A DNA stretch of 29,775 nucleotides from a virus, in IMG/VR virus record IMGVR_UViG_3300036573_000003, positions 1-29,775 of that record; one strand, written 5' to 3'. Shown here piece by piece: positions 4,262-12,895 of this stretch; the stretch's first letter is position 1, and the number at the start of each line of letters is the position of its first letter. Below the pieces are notes generated by a model, which was given only the letters and a program-made list of their open reading frames with translations, was not told where the DNA came from and made no database searches. Made by a program: the position numbers and the translations under genes.

Positions 4262-5038
4262 ATGGCAAAAAGAATGTACAAAAAAGACCCAATAGTGGTA
4301 GGAAAAACTTACCTTACTAAAAGTTTTGGGGAAGTTGTAATAGAAGATTATAAGAACTATAAAGAGATTCTTGTAAGGTTTAAGAATACCGGAAGTACTA
4401 AATGGGTAAGAGGTGACCACATAAAAGAGGGTTCATTACGAGATTCTTACGCCCCTACCGTATTCGGGGTAGGTGTTGTTGGTGATAGTATTACTAAAAT
4501 TGAGGGTAAAATTACCACAGTGTATAATACTTGGGTAGGGATACTAGAGCGTTGTTATTCTGAAAAACTTCATAATATAAGACCGTCGTACAAAGATTGT
4601 GAAATTTCTGAAGAATGGAAGTATTTAGATAACTTTAAGGTTTGGTTTGAAGCTAACCACAAGGATGGTTGGGAAGTTGATAAAGATTTACTTATTAAAG
4701 GTAATAAAATATATTCTGAAAAAACTTGCAGGTGTATACCTAAATCTCTAAATAATCTTATAAAAGAGAATTGGAAGTTGAATACCAAAGGCTTACCATT
4801 AGGTGTCACGGAAAGGGTAGGTTGTACTAATAACCCTTACAATGCAAGTATCTCTGTTGGGGAGTCTAAAAGAATTTCTATAGGGAATTACCCAACGCCA
4901 GAATTAGCATTCGAAGCTTATAAGATTGAGAAAGAGCGACGTATAAAATTTGTCGCTACAGAACTTTTTACAAACAATGAGATTGACAATTCTCTTTACG
5001 AAGCTTTGATAAACTACGAGGTAACGCCTTATGAGTAA
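4262..5038 (+). CDS. HNH/AP2-type homing endonuclease-like protein
   Basis: A 258-residue free-standing endonuclease-like protein placed between helicase and polymerase genes, a classic site for phage homing genes. The N-terminal 75 residues are a small basic beta-rich domain. The centre (about 83-165) has the family pattern W-x-x-I-L-x-R-CYSEK, P-S-Y-KDC, EEW, then DKDLL, GNKIYS and TC. In canonical HNH proteins the DKD position holds Asp-His, so this belongs to the H-deficient branch. The C-terminal segment (about 178-235: GVTERVGC to GNYPTPELAFEAY) matches an AP2-like DNA-binding repeat. Ribosome site AAGGAG. The end overlaps the polymerase start by 8 bases, so polymerase translation is now coupled to it. 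It shares the core with the gene at 11624-12244. Confidence 0.85.
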   Translation: MAKRMYKKDPIVVGKTYLTKSFGEVVIEDYKNYKEILVRFKNTGSTKWVRGDHIKEGSLRDSYAPTVFGVGVVGDSITKIEGKITTVYNTWVGILERCYSEKLHNIRPSYKDCEISEEWKYLDNFKVWFEANHKDGWEVDKDLLIKGNKIYSEKTCRCIPKSLNNLIKENWKLNTKGLPLGVTERVGCTNNPYNASISVGESKRISIGNYPTPELAFEAYKIEKERRIKFVATELFTNNEIDNSLYEALINYEVTPYE

Positions 5039-7562
5039 GTTTTCAAAAGAACAATTAACCCTATATGCCAACCGACCTAATTATAGTGACGTGGAGAGCG
5101 TTGGCTTCTGGTGGGATGTCCATTCACTCAAAGATATTCACACAATCTGCAGTGTAGTCGAAGACCCTGAAACTGGTGAAGATGTTACACTAGTATTTCA
5201 TGATAGACCTGATCTATGTGGTAGTGTGGTTCTAGACCCTTACGATGATAAAGAATATACAATCCCTCAACGAGCCGGAACACTTATAGATGGATTTAGG
5301 TATTGGTATCAAGTGGGACAGTCCAAAGATGGTTACTTGTCGGTGCATAACTGTTTTACCTACGATAAACCGATAACAGAGAAGGTACTCCCTAAATGTA
5401 TTATCCCTGATAGTAAGTGGGAGGATACTTTTATTTACAGTAAAATCCAATACTTTGACCGACCGACACCTAAAGGGGCTAAGTCTGCCCATGGTCTTCA
5501 AGCTTACGCTCTCCGCATGGGGATACATAAACCAGAGATCACAGACTACACTAAAATGGATGCTATGATGCTCCACAGGGTGATCGAAGACTGTAGGACT
5601 CAGAAATACGCTTCACAGTATTTAGAAAAAGAGCGTGGTATGTGCAAATCTAAGTTAGGTATCGATTTTTCAGATGCCTATAATATGGAAGTCCAATATG
5701 CTAAGATTTGTCACAAACAAGAGATCTATGGAGCTAAGATTGATGTAACACATGCGAAAGCTTGTGTAGAAGAGTGGGATAAGAGGTTACACGAGCTGGA
5801 AGCTCTTATTGAACCACAGTTACCCCCGACAGTGAAACCGCAAGGTCAAAAGGTAACTAGAAAAGAGATGGCTGTTGCATTAGGTTTTCCAGAAAAAATA
5901 ACCAGTAATATGGTAGAACCTACTGAGTTAGTTAATCGTAGCGGTGAACAGGTAGAGGTTAAGATCAAACCTTACTACAAACCTTCTACAAATTTTTACA
6001 CAACTAAAAAGGTTAATCAATATTCAGGTTTCCATATCTCTTATGGCGAGAGTCCAACTTTTTTTAAGAAGAATGAACTTACTTCTTGGATAAAACATAA
6101 TTATCCTGATACTAAACCAAAAGAGTGGGATATTCAAAAAGAGATTAAAGAGACTCTTCTTCTTAATAAAAATACTTGTGACTACTTCGGAGTAAAACCA
6201 GAAGATACTCATATAATTTCTGGACCATTCACCAGAGTTAAATTTGAGGATAGTAAACTTACCCAACATGAAGTAGTTAAAAGTGTTCTTATAAAGGCAG
6301 GTGTGACATGGGCAGAGCAATGGAATCTAGCCAAAGATGTCAATGGAGATGTAATAAAAGCGGATAAAGATACAAGAGTGAGTTATCCAAAAAAAGCTTC
6401 TCCAGAAAACCAAATTCATATAGATATCAAGAAAGGAGACGCTCTTGTTACTAGTCCTAAGTTTGGGGATTCTGAAATGGAACAAGTGGAAGGGGAACTG
6501 GGTAAGCAAATTAAAGAATATAACACGACTATGCATAGGCGTAGATACCTACTTAACGATAAAGACCCAGAAAATAAAGGTATTCTGGCTATGTTACGCC
6601 CTGATGGTAGAGTTTCAGCAGGGGTTAACAACTTCAATACTGCAACAGGTAGATCTTCTCATAGGGTCATAGTGAATTTGCCGTCAGATTCTGCACTACT
6701 TGGTTATGAAATGCGTAAGTGTGTAATTGCAGATGAAGGTAAAGAGTTAGTGGGTATTGACCAAAAAAGTTCTCAACTTTCTATCGCAGCTTTTGTTACC
6801 AATAATACTCAGTATTACGATGCGGTTGCAAGTGGGGTAGAGTTTTTTAACAATGAAGACGGTATCCCTATTTATAAAGGAACTAGTGCTCACTGTCTTA
6901 ATGCCAGATATTTTAACTTAGTAACTAAAGAAGAGTGGCAACAAGCAATAGATACACAAGATCCTGACCTTATACATGATATTGTACTTCGTAGGAAAAA
7001 ATCTAAAGGTTTATCATTCGCTTCGTTGTTTGGTTGTGGTGCTAAGAAACTGGCGTTAATGGGAGGATTCTCTGAAGCTGATGCAAAAAGTAAGCTTAAA
7101 TCTTTCTTAGATAATATTGGTTTGACGGGGGTTATAGAGTTTCTAGAGGAATGTAAGGTTAAGTATAAAAGAGGCAAAGGTTTTTATATACCTACTGCTT
7201 TTGGGTATTGGATCTTTTGTGAAGGTATGCACAAGGCTGTAAATTACTTGATACAGTCTATAGAAGGGGCTGTTCAAAAGATGGCGGTAATACTTTTCGA
7301 TAAAAAAATAGCAGAAAATTCTTGGGAATCTTCCGTAAACAAAATATTAGATATGCACGATGAGGTATTATTAGAGGTTAATTCTGGAATGGGAATTGAA
7401 GTGGGTAAAGCTATGTGCGCTGCTTATACAGAAGCAGGTATCAAACTTAACGAATTCTTTACAAAAAATTCAGATATCTTCTCTGGTGGTGGGTTACCTA
7501 ATATAACTTGTGACTTCGCAGGTGGTTATGCTGTAGGTTCTTCCTATGCTGAATGCCATTAA
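5031..7562 (+). CDS. Family A DNA polymerase, T7-like
   Basis: An 843-residue replicative polymerase, longer than T7 gp5 (704). Start ATG 5031 has GAGGT 7 bases upstream. The exonuclease domain keeps three of the four usual acids: D29 in WWDVH, D112 in HNCFTYD and D187 in VIEDC. The Exo I partner glutamate (T7 E7) is replaced by H31. A region of about 200 residues (roughly 260-470) has no obvious T7 counterpart in length and accounts for the extra size. Polymerase motifs: NTATGRSSHR; motif A GIDQKSSQL with D577 but Gln at 582 where family A has the steric-gate Glu; motif B R655-x3-K659-x3-F663 (T7 R518, K522, Y526); motif C MHDEV with D777. Ends in SSYAECH, comparable with the T7 C-terminal AICH. 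Probably acts with the primase-helicase and a host or phage processivity factor not seen here. Confidence 0.93.
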   Translation: MSKFSKEQLTLYANRPNYSDVESVGFWWDVHSLKDIHTICSVVEDPETGEDVTLVFHDRPDLCGSVVLDPYDDKEYTIPQRAGTLIDGFRYWYQVGQSKDGYLSVHNCFTYDKPITEKVLPKCIIPDSKWEDTFIYSKIQYFDRPTPKGAKSAHGLQAYALRMGIHKPEITDYTKMDAMMLHRVIEDCRTQKYASQYLEKERGMCKSKLGIDFSDAYNMEVQYAKICHKQEIYGAKIDVTHAKACVEEWDKRLHELEALIEPQLPPTVKPQGQKVTRKEMAVALGFPEKITSNMVEPTELVNRSGEQVEVKIKPYYKPSTNFYTTKKVNQYSGFHISYGESPTFFKKNELTSWIKHNYPDTKPKEWDIQKEIKETLLLNKNTCDYFGVKPEDTHIISGPFTRVKFEDSKLTQHEVVKSVLIKAGVTWAEQWNLAKDVNGDVIKADKDTRVSYPKKASPENQIHIDIKKGDALVTSPKFGDSEMEQVEGELGKQIKEYNTTMHRRRYLLNDKDPENKGILAMLRPDGRVSAGVNNFNTATGRSSHRVIVNLPSDSALLGYEMRKCVIADEGKELVGIDQKSSQLSIAAFVTNNTQYYDAVASGVEFFNNEDGIPIYKGTSAHCLNARYFNLVTKEEWQQAIDTQDPDLIHDIVLRRKKSKGLSFASLFGCGAKKLALMGGFSEADAKSKLKSFLDNIGLTGVIEFLEECKVKYKRGKGFYIPTAFGYWIFCEGMHKAVNYLIQSIEGAVQKMAVILFDKKIAENSWESSVNKILDMHDEVLLEVNSGMGIEVGKAMCAAYTEAGIKLNEFFTKNSDIFSGGGLPNITCDFAGGYAVGSSYAECH

Positions 7563-7582: not shown

Positions 7583-7611
7583 AAAATCCTATTTTCAGGG
7601 GGTTTTCTTTT
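7583..7611 (+). terminator. Probable terminator after DNA polymerase
   Basis: AAAATCC (7583-7589) pairs with GGGTTTT (7600-7606), including one T-G wobble, around a 10-base loop. It is followed by CTTTT. It lies 20 bases after the polymerase stop and before the promoter at 7680. The stem is weak, so termination is probably partial. Confidence 0.5.
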
Positions 7612-7679: not shown

Positions 7680-7708
7680 TTGACACCATCCCCAAACCAA
7701 GCTATCCT
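7680..7708 (+). promoter_or_regulatory. Sigma70-type promoter for the second early gene run
   Basis: A perfect -35 hexamer TTGACA (7680-7685), a 17-base spacer, and -10 TATCCT (7703-7708; 4 of 6 to consensus). Transcription would start at about 7714-7716 and read the gene at 7742. The -10 box overlaps one arm of the hairpin at 7705-7733. Confidence 0.72.
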
Positions 7709-7733
7709 CTAGACATCAACAGTGTTTAGAGGA
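7705..7733 (+). promoter_or_regulatory. Hairpin that would sequester the ribosome site of the 7742 gene
   Basis: TCCTCTA (7705-7711) is the exact reverse complement of TAGAGGA (7727-7733), with a 15-base loop. The right arm contains the Shine-Dalgarno AGAGGA, 8 bases before ATG 7742. The left arm overlaps the -10 box and lies upstream of the predicted start of transcription. Only read-through transcripts from the polymerase operon could therefore form the hairpin, while transcripts from the local promoter would leave the ribosome site free. Confidence 0.5.
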
Positions 7734-7741
7734 TTTTTATT

Positions 7742-8014
7742 ATGAGTAAACTATACAACATGAACCAACACAATTATGCTTGCAAACAAAACTTCCGTGT
7801 AGAATGGTCTTATGGACATGAATCTAGTCCACATACTGTAGCTTATGTACAAGGTTTTCAAAGTGTTCTTCATGAAATTGAATGTTTTCCACATTCTTTA
7901 AATATGGGAGAATTATTCCGTGTATTCATTGATAACAAAGCTAAGAAACACTATATCATGATGATTGATGATAATGGTAATCTTGTATTAACTATTAAAA
8001 TATCTGAGGAATAA
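7742..8014 (+). CDS. Hypothetical protein, first gene of second early run
   Basis: A 90-residue protein of unknown function, first gene after the promoter at 7680. It is histidine-rich (YGHESSPHTV, HEIECFPH) but without a spaced metal motif. The C-terminal half looks like a small beta domain (LFRVFIDNKAKKHYIMMIDDNGNLVLTI, read as strand-turn-strand). No signal peptide or membrane helix. Ribosome site AGAGGA, 8 bases from the ATG. The gene ends 3 bases before the next ATG, so the two are likely cotranscribed and coupled. Confidence 0.75.
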   Translation: MSKLYNMNQHNYACKQNFRVEWSYGHESSPHTVAYVQGFQSVLHEIECFPHSLNMGELFRVFIDNKAKKHYIMMIDDNGNLVLTIKISEE

Positions 8015-8200: not shown

Positions 8201-8208
8201 AAACCCCA

Positions 8209-8236: not shown

Positions 8237-8267
8237 GTATACATATTGAAATGAAGGGGAAATAATT

Positions 8268-8701: not shown

Positions 8702-9049
8702 GTGAAAATTAAACAATCCCTCTTGAAGCATGGCTTCAAACTACACCCTGTTATAAAAGGTTCAGAATCTTTGTACAAAAATGCTGATGAGTTTGCACAA
8801 CTCAAAGTGTGGGATGAACTTGGCGAAAAGGCACTATACTTTGTAAATTGTTATCTTTATTCGTTTAAAGACGCTTACAAATGTCCTGATTCTTTGAAGG
8901 AAGATTTGCAAGCTAGTTTTGAAGTACAATTCTCTTTTGGAGAGGATGAATTTTTCAACGTTGGTTATTCTACACAGAACGTTGAAGAAGCTTTACAATT
9001 CTTCAAAAAGATGTATACTGTTATGAATTGCACAGCTTACGACGATTGA
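8702..9049 (+). CDS. Hypothetical protein
   Basis: A 115-residue protein starting with GTG at 8702, two bases after the preceding stop, with AGGAG 7 bases upstream. Predicted mixed alpha/beta and soluble: a basic N-terminal helix, a central aromatic strand region (KALYFVNCYLYSF), and a C-terminal half with FEVQFSFGEDEFFNVGY followed by an amphipathic helix. No recognised family. Its position in a five-gene string behind the ATPase-like gene suggests coexpression. Confidence 0.75.
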   Translation: MKIKQSLLKHGFKLHPVIKGSESLYKNADEFAQLKVWDELGEKALYFVNCYLYSFKDAYKCPDSLKEDLQASFEVQFSFGEDEFFNVGYSTQNVEEALQFFKKMYTVMNCTAYDD

Positions 9050-10308: not shown

Positions 10309-10337
10309 TTGACACAATAAAGTTTTCAATATAAAAT
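10309..10337 (+). promoter_or_regulatory. Sigma70-type promoter for the SSB gene
   Basis: A perfect -35 TTGACA (10309-10314), a 17-base spacer and -10 TAAAAT (10332-10337; 5 of 6). Transcription would begin at about 10344, giving a leader of roughly 117 bases before the SSB ATG. The leader contains a small stem AGGTA/TACCT (around 10400-10415) and a G6 run but no clear riboswitch. This accounts for the gene-free stretch 10301-10460. Confidence 0.75.
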
Positions 10338-10460
10338 AAATAATTCCGTAGAACTTTTCTTTCACAGAGATGTGATTTTTGGGGGGAAGAAACACCTCTA
10401 AGGTAGCTGGATACCTATTGAAACCAGTACAATAATCAATTAAATAGGAGTAACACTTAT

Positions 10461-11596: not shown

Positions 11597-11620
11597 AAAA
11601 CCCCTCTAGTGAGGGGTTTT
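11597..11620 (+). terminator. Terminator of the SSB unit, also carries a ribosome site
   Basis: AAAACCCCTC, loop TAGT, GAGGGGTTTT: a perfect 10-base-pair symmetrical stem with flanking A and T runs, 44 bases after the SSB stop. It can terminate on either strand. Its right arm (GAGGGG) is the nearest purine-rich ribosome site to the start of the following endonuclease-like gene. Confidence 0.85.
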
Positions 11621-12760: not shown

Positions 12761-12787
12761 AAAATACCCTCGTGTTGAGGGTATTTT
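12761..12787. terminator. Bidirectional terminator between the converging units
   Basis: AAAATACCCTC, loop GTGTT, GAGGGTATTTT: a perfect 11-base-pair stem with A/T flanks on both sides. It lies just beyond the minus-strand late genes and after the plus-strand terminator, so it mainly ends the late minus-strand transcript. Confidence 0.88.
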
Positions 12788-12802: not shown

Positions 12803-12895
12803 TTAAGTGAAATTTGTTGTAATTAGTCGTTTACGTAACCCCCCTTCGACCCGGATAATTTCGTTAATAATTTCGTTAATAATTTCGGTCTTCAT
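12803..12895 (-). pseudogene. Truncated, frameshifted 5' end of a GH108-type endolysin gene
   Basis: ATG at 12895 overlaps the esterase stop by 4 bases (ATGA). The open frame is 30 codons. It begins MKTEIINEIINEIIRVEGG, which matches the start of glycoside hydrolase family 108 lysozymes (M-K-x-E-x-I-N-x-I-I-x-x-E-GGYVNDP). After the glycines the frame changes. Removing one G from the G6 run (plus-strand C at 12839-12844) restores G-G-Y-V-N-D, followed at once by TAA (12825-12823). So only about the first 20 residues of the enzyme survive, and they carry a 12-base internal duplication. The catalytic Glu of this family is normally the E of the E-G-G motif and remains, but the domain is gone. 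The break falls where GC-rich sequence gives way to AT-rich sequence. Confidence 0.68.
12855..12887 (-). repeat. 12-base tandem repeat, 2.75 copies, in the endolysin stub
   Basis: On the plus strand ATAATTTCGTTA occurs twice in tandem (12855-12866, 12867-12878), followed by ATAATTTCG (12879-12887). On the coding strand it repeats the codons for E-I-I-N, in frame. It probably arose by slippage within the degenerating gene. Confidence 0.85.

Follow-up and report, generated by a model that had tools for sequence, protein, structure and literature searches.

We analysed a 29.8 kb virus record from an ICP1-like Vibrio phage, referred to below as the window, and found at positions 7680-7742, after the DNA polymerase gene and ahead of a series of short genes, a site which we read, with a probability of roughly 70%, as a fused cassette: a sigma-70 promoter nested in an intrinsic terminator, the descending arm of which is the ribosome-binding site (RBS) of the next gene. 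The hairpin, the promoter boxes, the U-tract, the Shine-Dalgarno sequence (SD) in the arm, the covariation of the arms and the recurrence of the arrangement are all seen directly in the sequences.

Promoter and hairpin elements

All elements of the cassette lie on the + strand. The -35 box TTGACA (7680..7685) is perfect and invariant among the aligned cassettes. It is followed, after a spacer of 17 nt, by the -10 box TATCCT (7703..7708), which matches at 4/6 positions. TTGACA-17-TATCCT scores 10/12 as a sigma-70 promoter, and the promoters of the relatives score 10-12/12. The initial annotation had called this promoter strong, which fits the -35 box but is generous for the -10 box. From the spacing, the transcription start (+1) is predicted near 7715 (7713-7717).

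The hairpin has a stem of 13 bp with one G.U pair and a free energy of -16.8 kcal/mol, formed by a left arm (7704..7716) and a right arm (7722..7734) around a loop (7717..7721). Its z-score was -4.6 to -5.4 and 0/200 shuffles were equally stable. The pairing of TCCTCTA (7705-7711) with TAGAGGA (7727-7733) ahead of the ATG at 7742 had been described in the initial annotation with exact coordinates, but the stem is longer than was claimed there. The left arm overlaps the -10 box and lies almost wholly upstream of the predicted +1, which would leave about 2 nt of it in the local RNA. The SD of the 7742 gene, AGAGGA (7728..7733), lies within the right arm and hence inside the stem of any read-through RNA. 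Directly after the stem follows the T-tract TTTTATT (7735..7741), which is at once the U-tract of the terminator and the spacer between SD and AUG. Hairpin and TTTTATT together match the terminator consensus, a feature absent from the initial annotation. In the predicted folding the SD bases are unpaired in only ~0-3% of read-through RNA, whereas in RNA begun at 7713-7717 each SD base is 29-76% unpaired. The nested arrangement that had been proposed, in which the left arm lies over the -10 box, the right arm contains the SD and the local RNA is unfolded, holds in silico.

Genomic setting

The nearest named relative of the window phage is P018-4, the DNA polymerase of which is 91% identical. 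Upstream of the cassette lies a gene for a DNA polymerase I-type protein of 843 aa (5031..7562, + strand; open reading frame, phrog_17 DNA polymerase, E 3e-82). It is the last gene of the upstream operon and is preceded in the window by primase-helicase and HNH genes. Downstream of the local promoter, a 90-aa gene of unknown function (phrog_8863; 7742..8014, + strand) is the first of a cluster of short genes. Homologs of its protein were found in 91 Vibrio phage records, ICP1 among them. In ICP1, RNA-seq places the peak of the polymerase at 8 min, and the genes of the 4-min class are mostly short and hypothetical (PMC7567579). Separate timing of two gene sets, as proposed earlier for the site, is compatible with these data, and we claim no more than that.

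The fragment contains one copy of the cassette. An Rfam scan of the window matched no family. In IMG/VR, the 90-aa protein gave a single match, an unrelated GC-rich locus, and the exact pattern of the window also gave a single match, likewise unrelated.

Several other elements were noted in the window and around the polymerase gene. Group I introns (Rfam RF00028) lie in or adjoin the DNA polymerase gene of relatives, namely at 319-539 and 913-1133 in VnaP (L006), at 1270-1481 in IBT34 (L007) and at 4587-4926 in 10AMN (L052). The VnaP polymerase gene, with its two introns, is annotated in pieces; that of the window is uninterrupted. At 10309-10460 of the window a near-consensus promoter (TTGACA-17-TAAAAT) is followed by a leader of ~115 nt, the predicted fold of which is no better than shuffles, and then by a 363-aa gene (phrog_2544). 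Strong symmetric hairpins with A/T on both flanks occur at 11597-11620 and 12761-12787, around the point where the genes switch from the + to the - strand, and are likely to terminate transcription in both directions. A short array of tandem TAATTTCGT(TAA) units at 12858-12889 directly precedes the convergent - strand genes.

Conservation in related phages

The same cassette was found in five relatives (P018-4, VnaP, IBT34, qdvp001 and 10AMN), making six with the window. In P018-4, VnaP and IBT34 a cassette of the same plan stands before the same 7742-type gene, and in qdvp001 and 10AMN it stands before other genes. In PWH3a-P1 and ICP1 a cassette precedes a neighbour of this gene within the cluster, and the homolog of the 7742 gene is an internal gene of an operon in 11895-B1 and 1.084. 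VnaP and PWH3a-P1 are phages of V. natriegens, a harmless Vibrio.

The arms fall into three versions: ATCCTCTAGACA/TGTTTAGAGGAT in the window, ATCCTCTCTGC/GCAGAGAGGAT in both P018-4 and 10AMN, and ATCCCTCTACCG/CGGTAGAGGGAT in VnaP, IBT34 and qdvp001. Between the VnaP-type and P018-4-type stems 6/11 pairs are changed on both sides, and between the window and P018-4 3/11 pairs are; in both comparisons all of the pairs still form. A stem that was neither conserved nor compensated in related phages would have spoken against the initial annotation; what we observed is compensation at 3-6 pairs. The T-rich tail after the hairpin is also kept in the relatives. The left arm is placed in one of two ways: either it takes up the spacer from -35 to -10 or it overlaps the -10 box and the start. 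With either placement the local RNA would lack the pairing arm wholly or for the most part, given the predicted start. Even so, the SD is predicted to be still partly paired in the local RNA of some members and mostly paired at two sites (P018-4 94355 and 1.084 117887).

The cassettes also appear to lie at gene-exchange borders between related phages. At this spot P018-4 and 10AMN are similar solely from -79 to -4 (95%), and the flanking genes differ on both sides. IBT34 and qdvp001 share 97% of the cassette and then change sharply to different genes.

Termination

The hairpin resembles an intrinsic terminator of the polymerase operon. Its approximate terminator score is marginal at 6.1 (the T-tract family mostly ranges from about -33 to +28), and given this score read-through past the hairpin could be substantial. 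The distance from the upstream stop codon to the left arm has a median of ~30 nt (3-141 nt at 21/22 sites), and the cassette frequently starts <=5 nt past that stop codon. Because the left arm follows the upstream stop codon so closely, the hairpin is usually the sole terminator candidate at such a site. In the window, a hairpin of lower stability, with a T-rich stretch behind it, follows the polymerase gene at 7583-7610; it may be an earlier end of the polymerase operon or may share the work of termination.

Recurrence in phage genomes

In nine ICP1-like genomes we found the nested design at 15 of 1,814 candidate starts. When the upstream regions were shuffled with the last 20 nt kept, the design was found 0 times in each of 20 rounds. 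In the window a -10/-35 pair alone is cheap by comparison (69 found, 52.5 expected). A single relative carries at most four sites at the strict cut-off. In a promoter-blind search of 11 genomes the SD was part of a terminator-like arm at 41 gene starts, and 22/41 had a promoter of at least 10/12 with its start between the arms. Across the ICP1-like and jumbo genomes, promoters were located at 21/1026 positions between the arms compared to 6/11574 positions outside, a density ~40x higher. The association with the T-tract can be viewed from both sides: in 13 genomes a nested promoter was present in 22/42 SD hairpins with a T-tract and in 9/134 without, and a T-tract followed 22/31 nested SD hairpins and 20/145 other SD hairpins. 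The genomes counted are related and formal p-values overstate their independence; the independent arm sequences are for this reason the better argument.

Two further candidates in the window were rejected. The site at 8992 looks nested but has no T-tract and is probably due to chance. CCCC (8204-8207) and GGGG (8255-8258), which surround the next promoter, give a fold no better than shuffles.

Sites in IMG/VR and bacterial genomes

The pattern used in two scans of IMG/VR consisted just of TTGACA, one arm, the complement of that arm and TTTT(T), and demanded no -10 box. They returned 83 distinct sites, on contigs of 354-378 kb as well as on many unrelated contigs. At 41/83 of the sites a -10 box was also present, together with a start codon leading into an open frame, and 34/51 of the -10 boxes matching at least 5/6 positions stood at a spacer of 17. 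The control with reversed arms partly regained the same real sites (5/13), which bounds chance only loosely. Counts of G.U and A.C in the unbiased IMG/VR set were 9 and 7, respectively, and did not separate RNA pairing from DNA pairing. In bacterial genomes 6/79 distinct sites among the matches listed were complete, compared to 15/26 in IMG/VR.

Relation to known systems

T4 gene e has promoters whose RNA omits the 5' strand of an inhibitory structure (PMC3014915). The parallel drawn in the initial annotation is accurate in its geometry (PMC3014915), and the sequences of T4 e and soc both show the hairpin. Like the cassette, they place the promoter in or over the left arm and the SD within the right arm, and it is the 5' end that determines how the RNA folds. 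In silico, the SD of the window is paired in the long RNA and free in the RNA of the nested promoter, as in an e-type switch. T4 e and soc differ, however, in having late promoters and no U-tract, whereas the cassettes combine sigma-70-type promoters with a U-tract and would act repeatedly as an operon insulator. The U-tract argues that much of the long RNA would end before it reaches full length, unlike in a T4 e-type switch. On the reverse strand of T4 (NC_000866), near 62791, 123085 and 136325, we also noted long SD hairpins with nested promoter-like sequence and no T-tract, and these three starts are possible further gene e-type switches.

Ordinary phage inter-operon terminators likewise consist of a GC-containing stem and a U-tract, located a short way past the upstream stop codon. 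The terminator of the cassette, by contrast, shares sequence with the following promoter and provides the RBS that goes with it.

Promoter-early stem-loops (PeSLs) join an early sigma-70 promoter to a stem-loop terminator, occur in several copies per genome and are found in regions of short unknown genes and at gene-exchange borders. Such cassettes of RB49/phi1 and other T4-like phages are reportedly the subject of Arbiol et al. 2010 and Comeau et al. 2014. The cassette resembles them in joining a sigma-70 promoter to a terminator-like stem-loop, in its recurrence, in the short unknown genes and in the exchange borders. Its promoter is strong and sigma-70-like by sequence (10/12), it recurs in the relatives and it lies at a border according to the P018-4/10AMN flanks. 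As for an effective terminator, stem and U-tract are there and the predicted score is marginal. The RB49-type tandem arrangement was not found: in RB49 the two parts follow each other with the SD outside the stem, whereas in the cassette they are nested, with the start between the arms and the SD in the terminator. The carriers differ as well, since PeSLs belong to T4-like phages and ICP1-like phages are not T4-like. The genus of ICP1 is Mohonavirus, and the relatives of the window are ICP1-like by genome and not T4-like (Straboviridae).

In the RB49 genome we counted 14 terminators upstream of a -35 box, none of them nested at the strict cut-off. For the most part the terminators of RB49 precede the -35 box and its SDs are unpaired; nested cassettes with the SD in the arm are rare there (2, one of them before modB). 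Many early promoters of RB49 (NC_005066) carry a hairpin of the GGGGATC..GATCCCC type that takes up the spacer between the two promoter boxes and does not include the SD, for example at - strand offsets 40724, 41137 and 42282. We regard the cassette of the window as a nested, RBS-containing, PeSL-like putative insulator, which would work like a PeSL but is not a classic one.

Alternative explanations

An unlikely alternative is a purely translational switch as in T4 gene e, in which the read-through RNA is made in full, its SD is hidden and the apparent U-tract is an A/T-rich spacer. The SD is indeed predicted to be fully paired in the read-through RNA, the terminator score is marginal and the nested geometry matches that of T4 e, for which a roughly 100-fold effect is described (PMC3014915). 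Such a switch would leave the T-tract after 22/31 nested as opposed to 20/145 other SD hairpins unaccounted for, and the hairpins of T4 e and soc themselves do without a U-tract. We consider it improbable that an ordinary terminator and an ordinary promoter are simply packed together, with the pairing of the SD an economy by-product that has no effect on translation. Phages do compress intergenic space, the cassette is often <=5 nt from the upstream stop codon and RB49 has terminator and promoter in tandem without pairing of the SD; covering the SD with a stem of about -12 to -27 kcal/mol should nevertheless lower the translation of any read-through RNA. The SD in the arm is the search definition and true of every member, and sequence data cannot separate this packing from our preferred explanation.

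The inverted repeat over the -10 box might also be a DNA-level operator bound by a dimeric regulator, as the overlap of the palindrome with promoter elements would allow. Its arms, however, differ between the cassettes of one genome, the loop length is highly variable, members differ in whether the repeat occupies the spacer or the -10 box, and the T-tract is found on the right side only. We rejected this highly improbable reading. There is scarcely any likelihood that the cassette is kept mainly as a short homology for the recombination of modules with regulation secondary. The similarity of P018-4 and 10AMN is confined to the cassette, the genes of IBT34 and qdvp001 change sharply after it and a role in recombination is reported for the PeSLs of T4-like phages. 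The arms nevertheless diverge and still pair, and homology for recombination needs no pairing.

Proposed mechanism and significance

In the fused cassette that we prefer, an RNA polymerase coming out of the DNA polymerase operon would transcribe both arms and the hairpin would fold ahead of the U-tract. Most incoming transcripts would then end at about 7738-7741, and read-through RNA that escaped would have its SD locked in the stem and be poorly translated. RNA from the nested promoter (start at ~7715) would omit the left arm and be subject neither to termination nor to hiding of the SD. The cluster of short genes would be insulated from the upstream operon in minimum space. We infer termination, the start site and the difference in translation from the arrangement of the elements. 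The initial annotation had seen the site as a translational switch; its nested logic holds in silico and its geometry is that of T4 e, but the U-tract had been overlooked. Since a U-tract is present and recurs with nested SD hairpins, stopping transcription is probably the primary act and hiding of the SD a second layer, which could be important for leaked RNA. The U-tract, the closeness to the upstream stop codon and the nested start site together favour an insulated promoter.

We put forward tentatively, at somewhat less than even odds, that fused promoter-terminator-RBS cassettes are widespread and repeatedly evolved in phages that are not related to T4, where they would gate transcription and translation by the start site and serve as a joint for the exchange of modules. 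If this is true, dense phage operons could adjoin without leakage at the RNA or protein level, and module exchange at such borders with expression kept would be explained. The order of the elements, from the -35 box through the left arm, the -10 box, the SD-bearing right arm and the T-tract to the start codon, would also be a signature by which promoters and operon borders in uncultured phages could be searched for, and the cassettes would constitute a compact self-insulating part.
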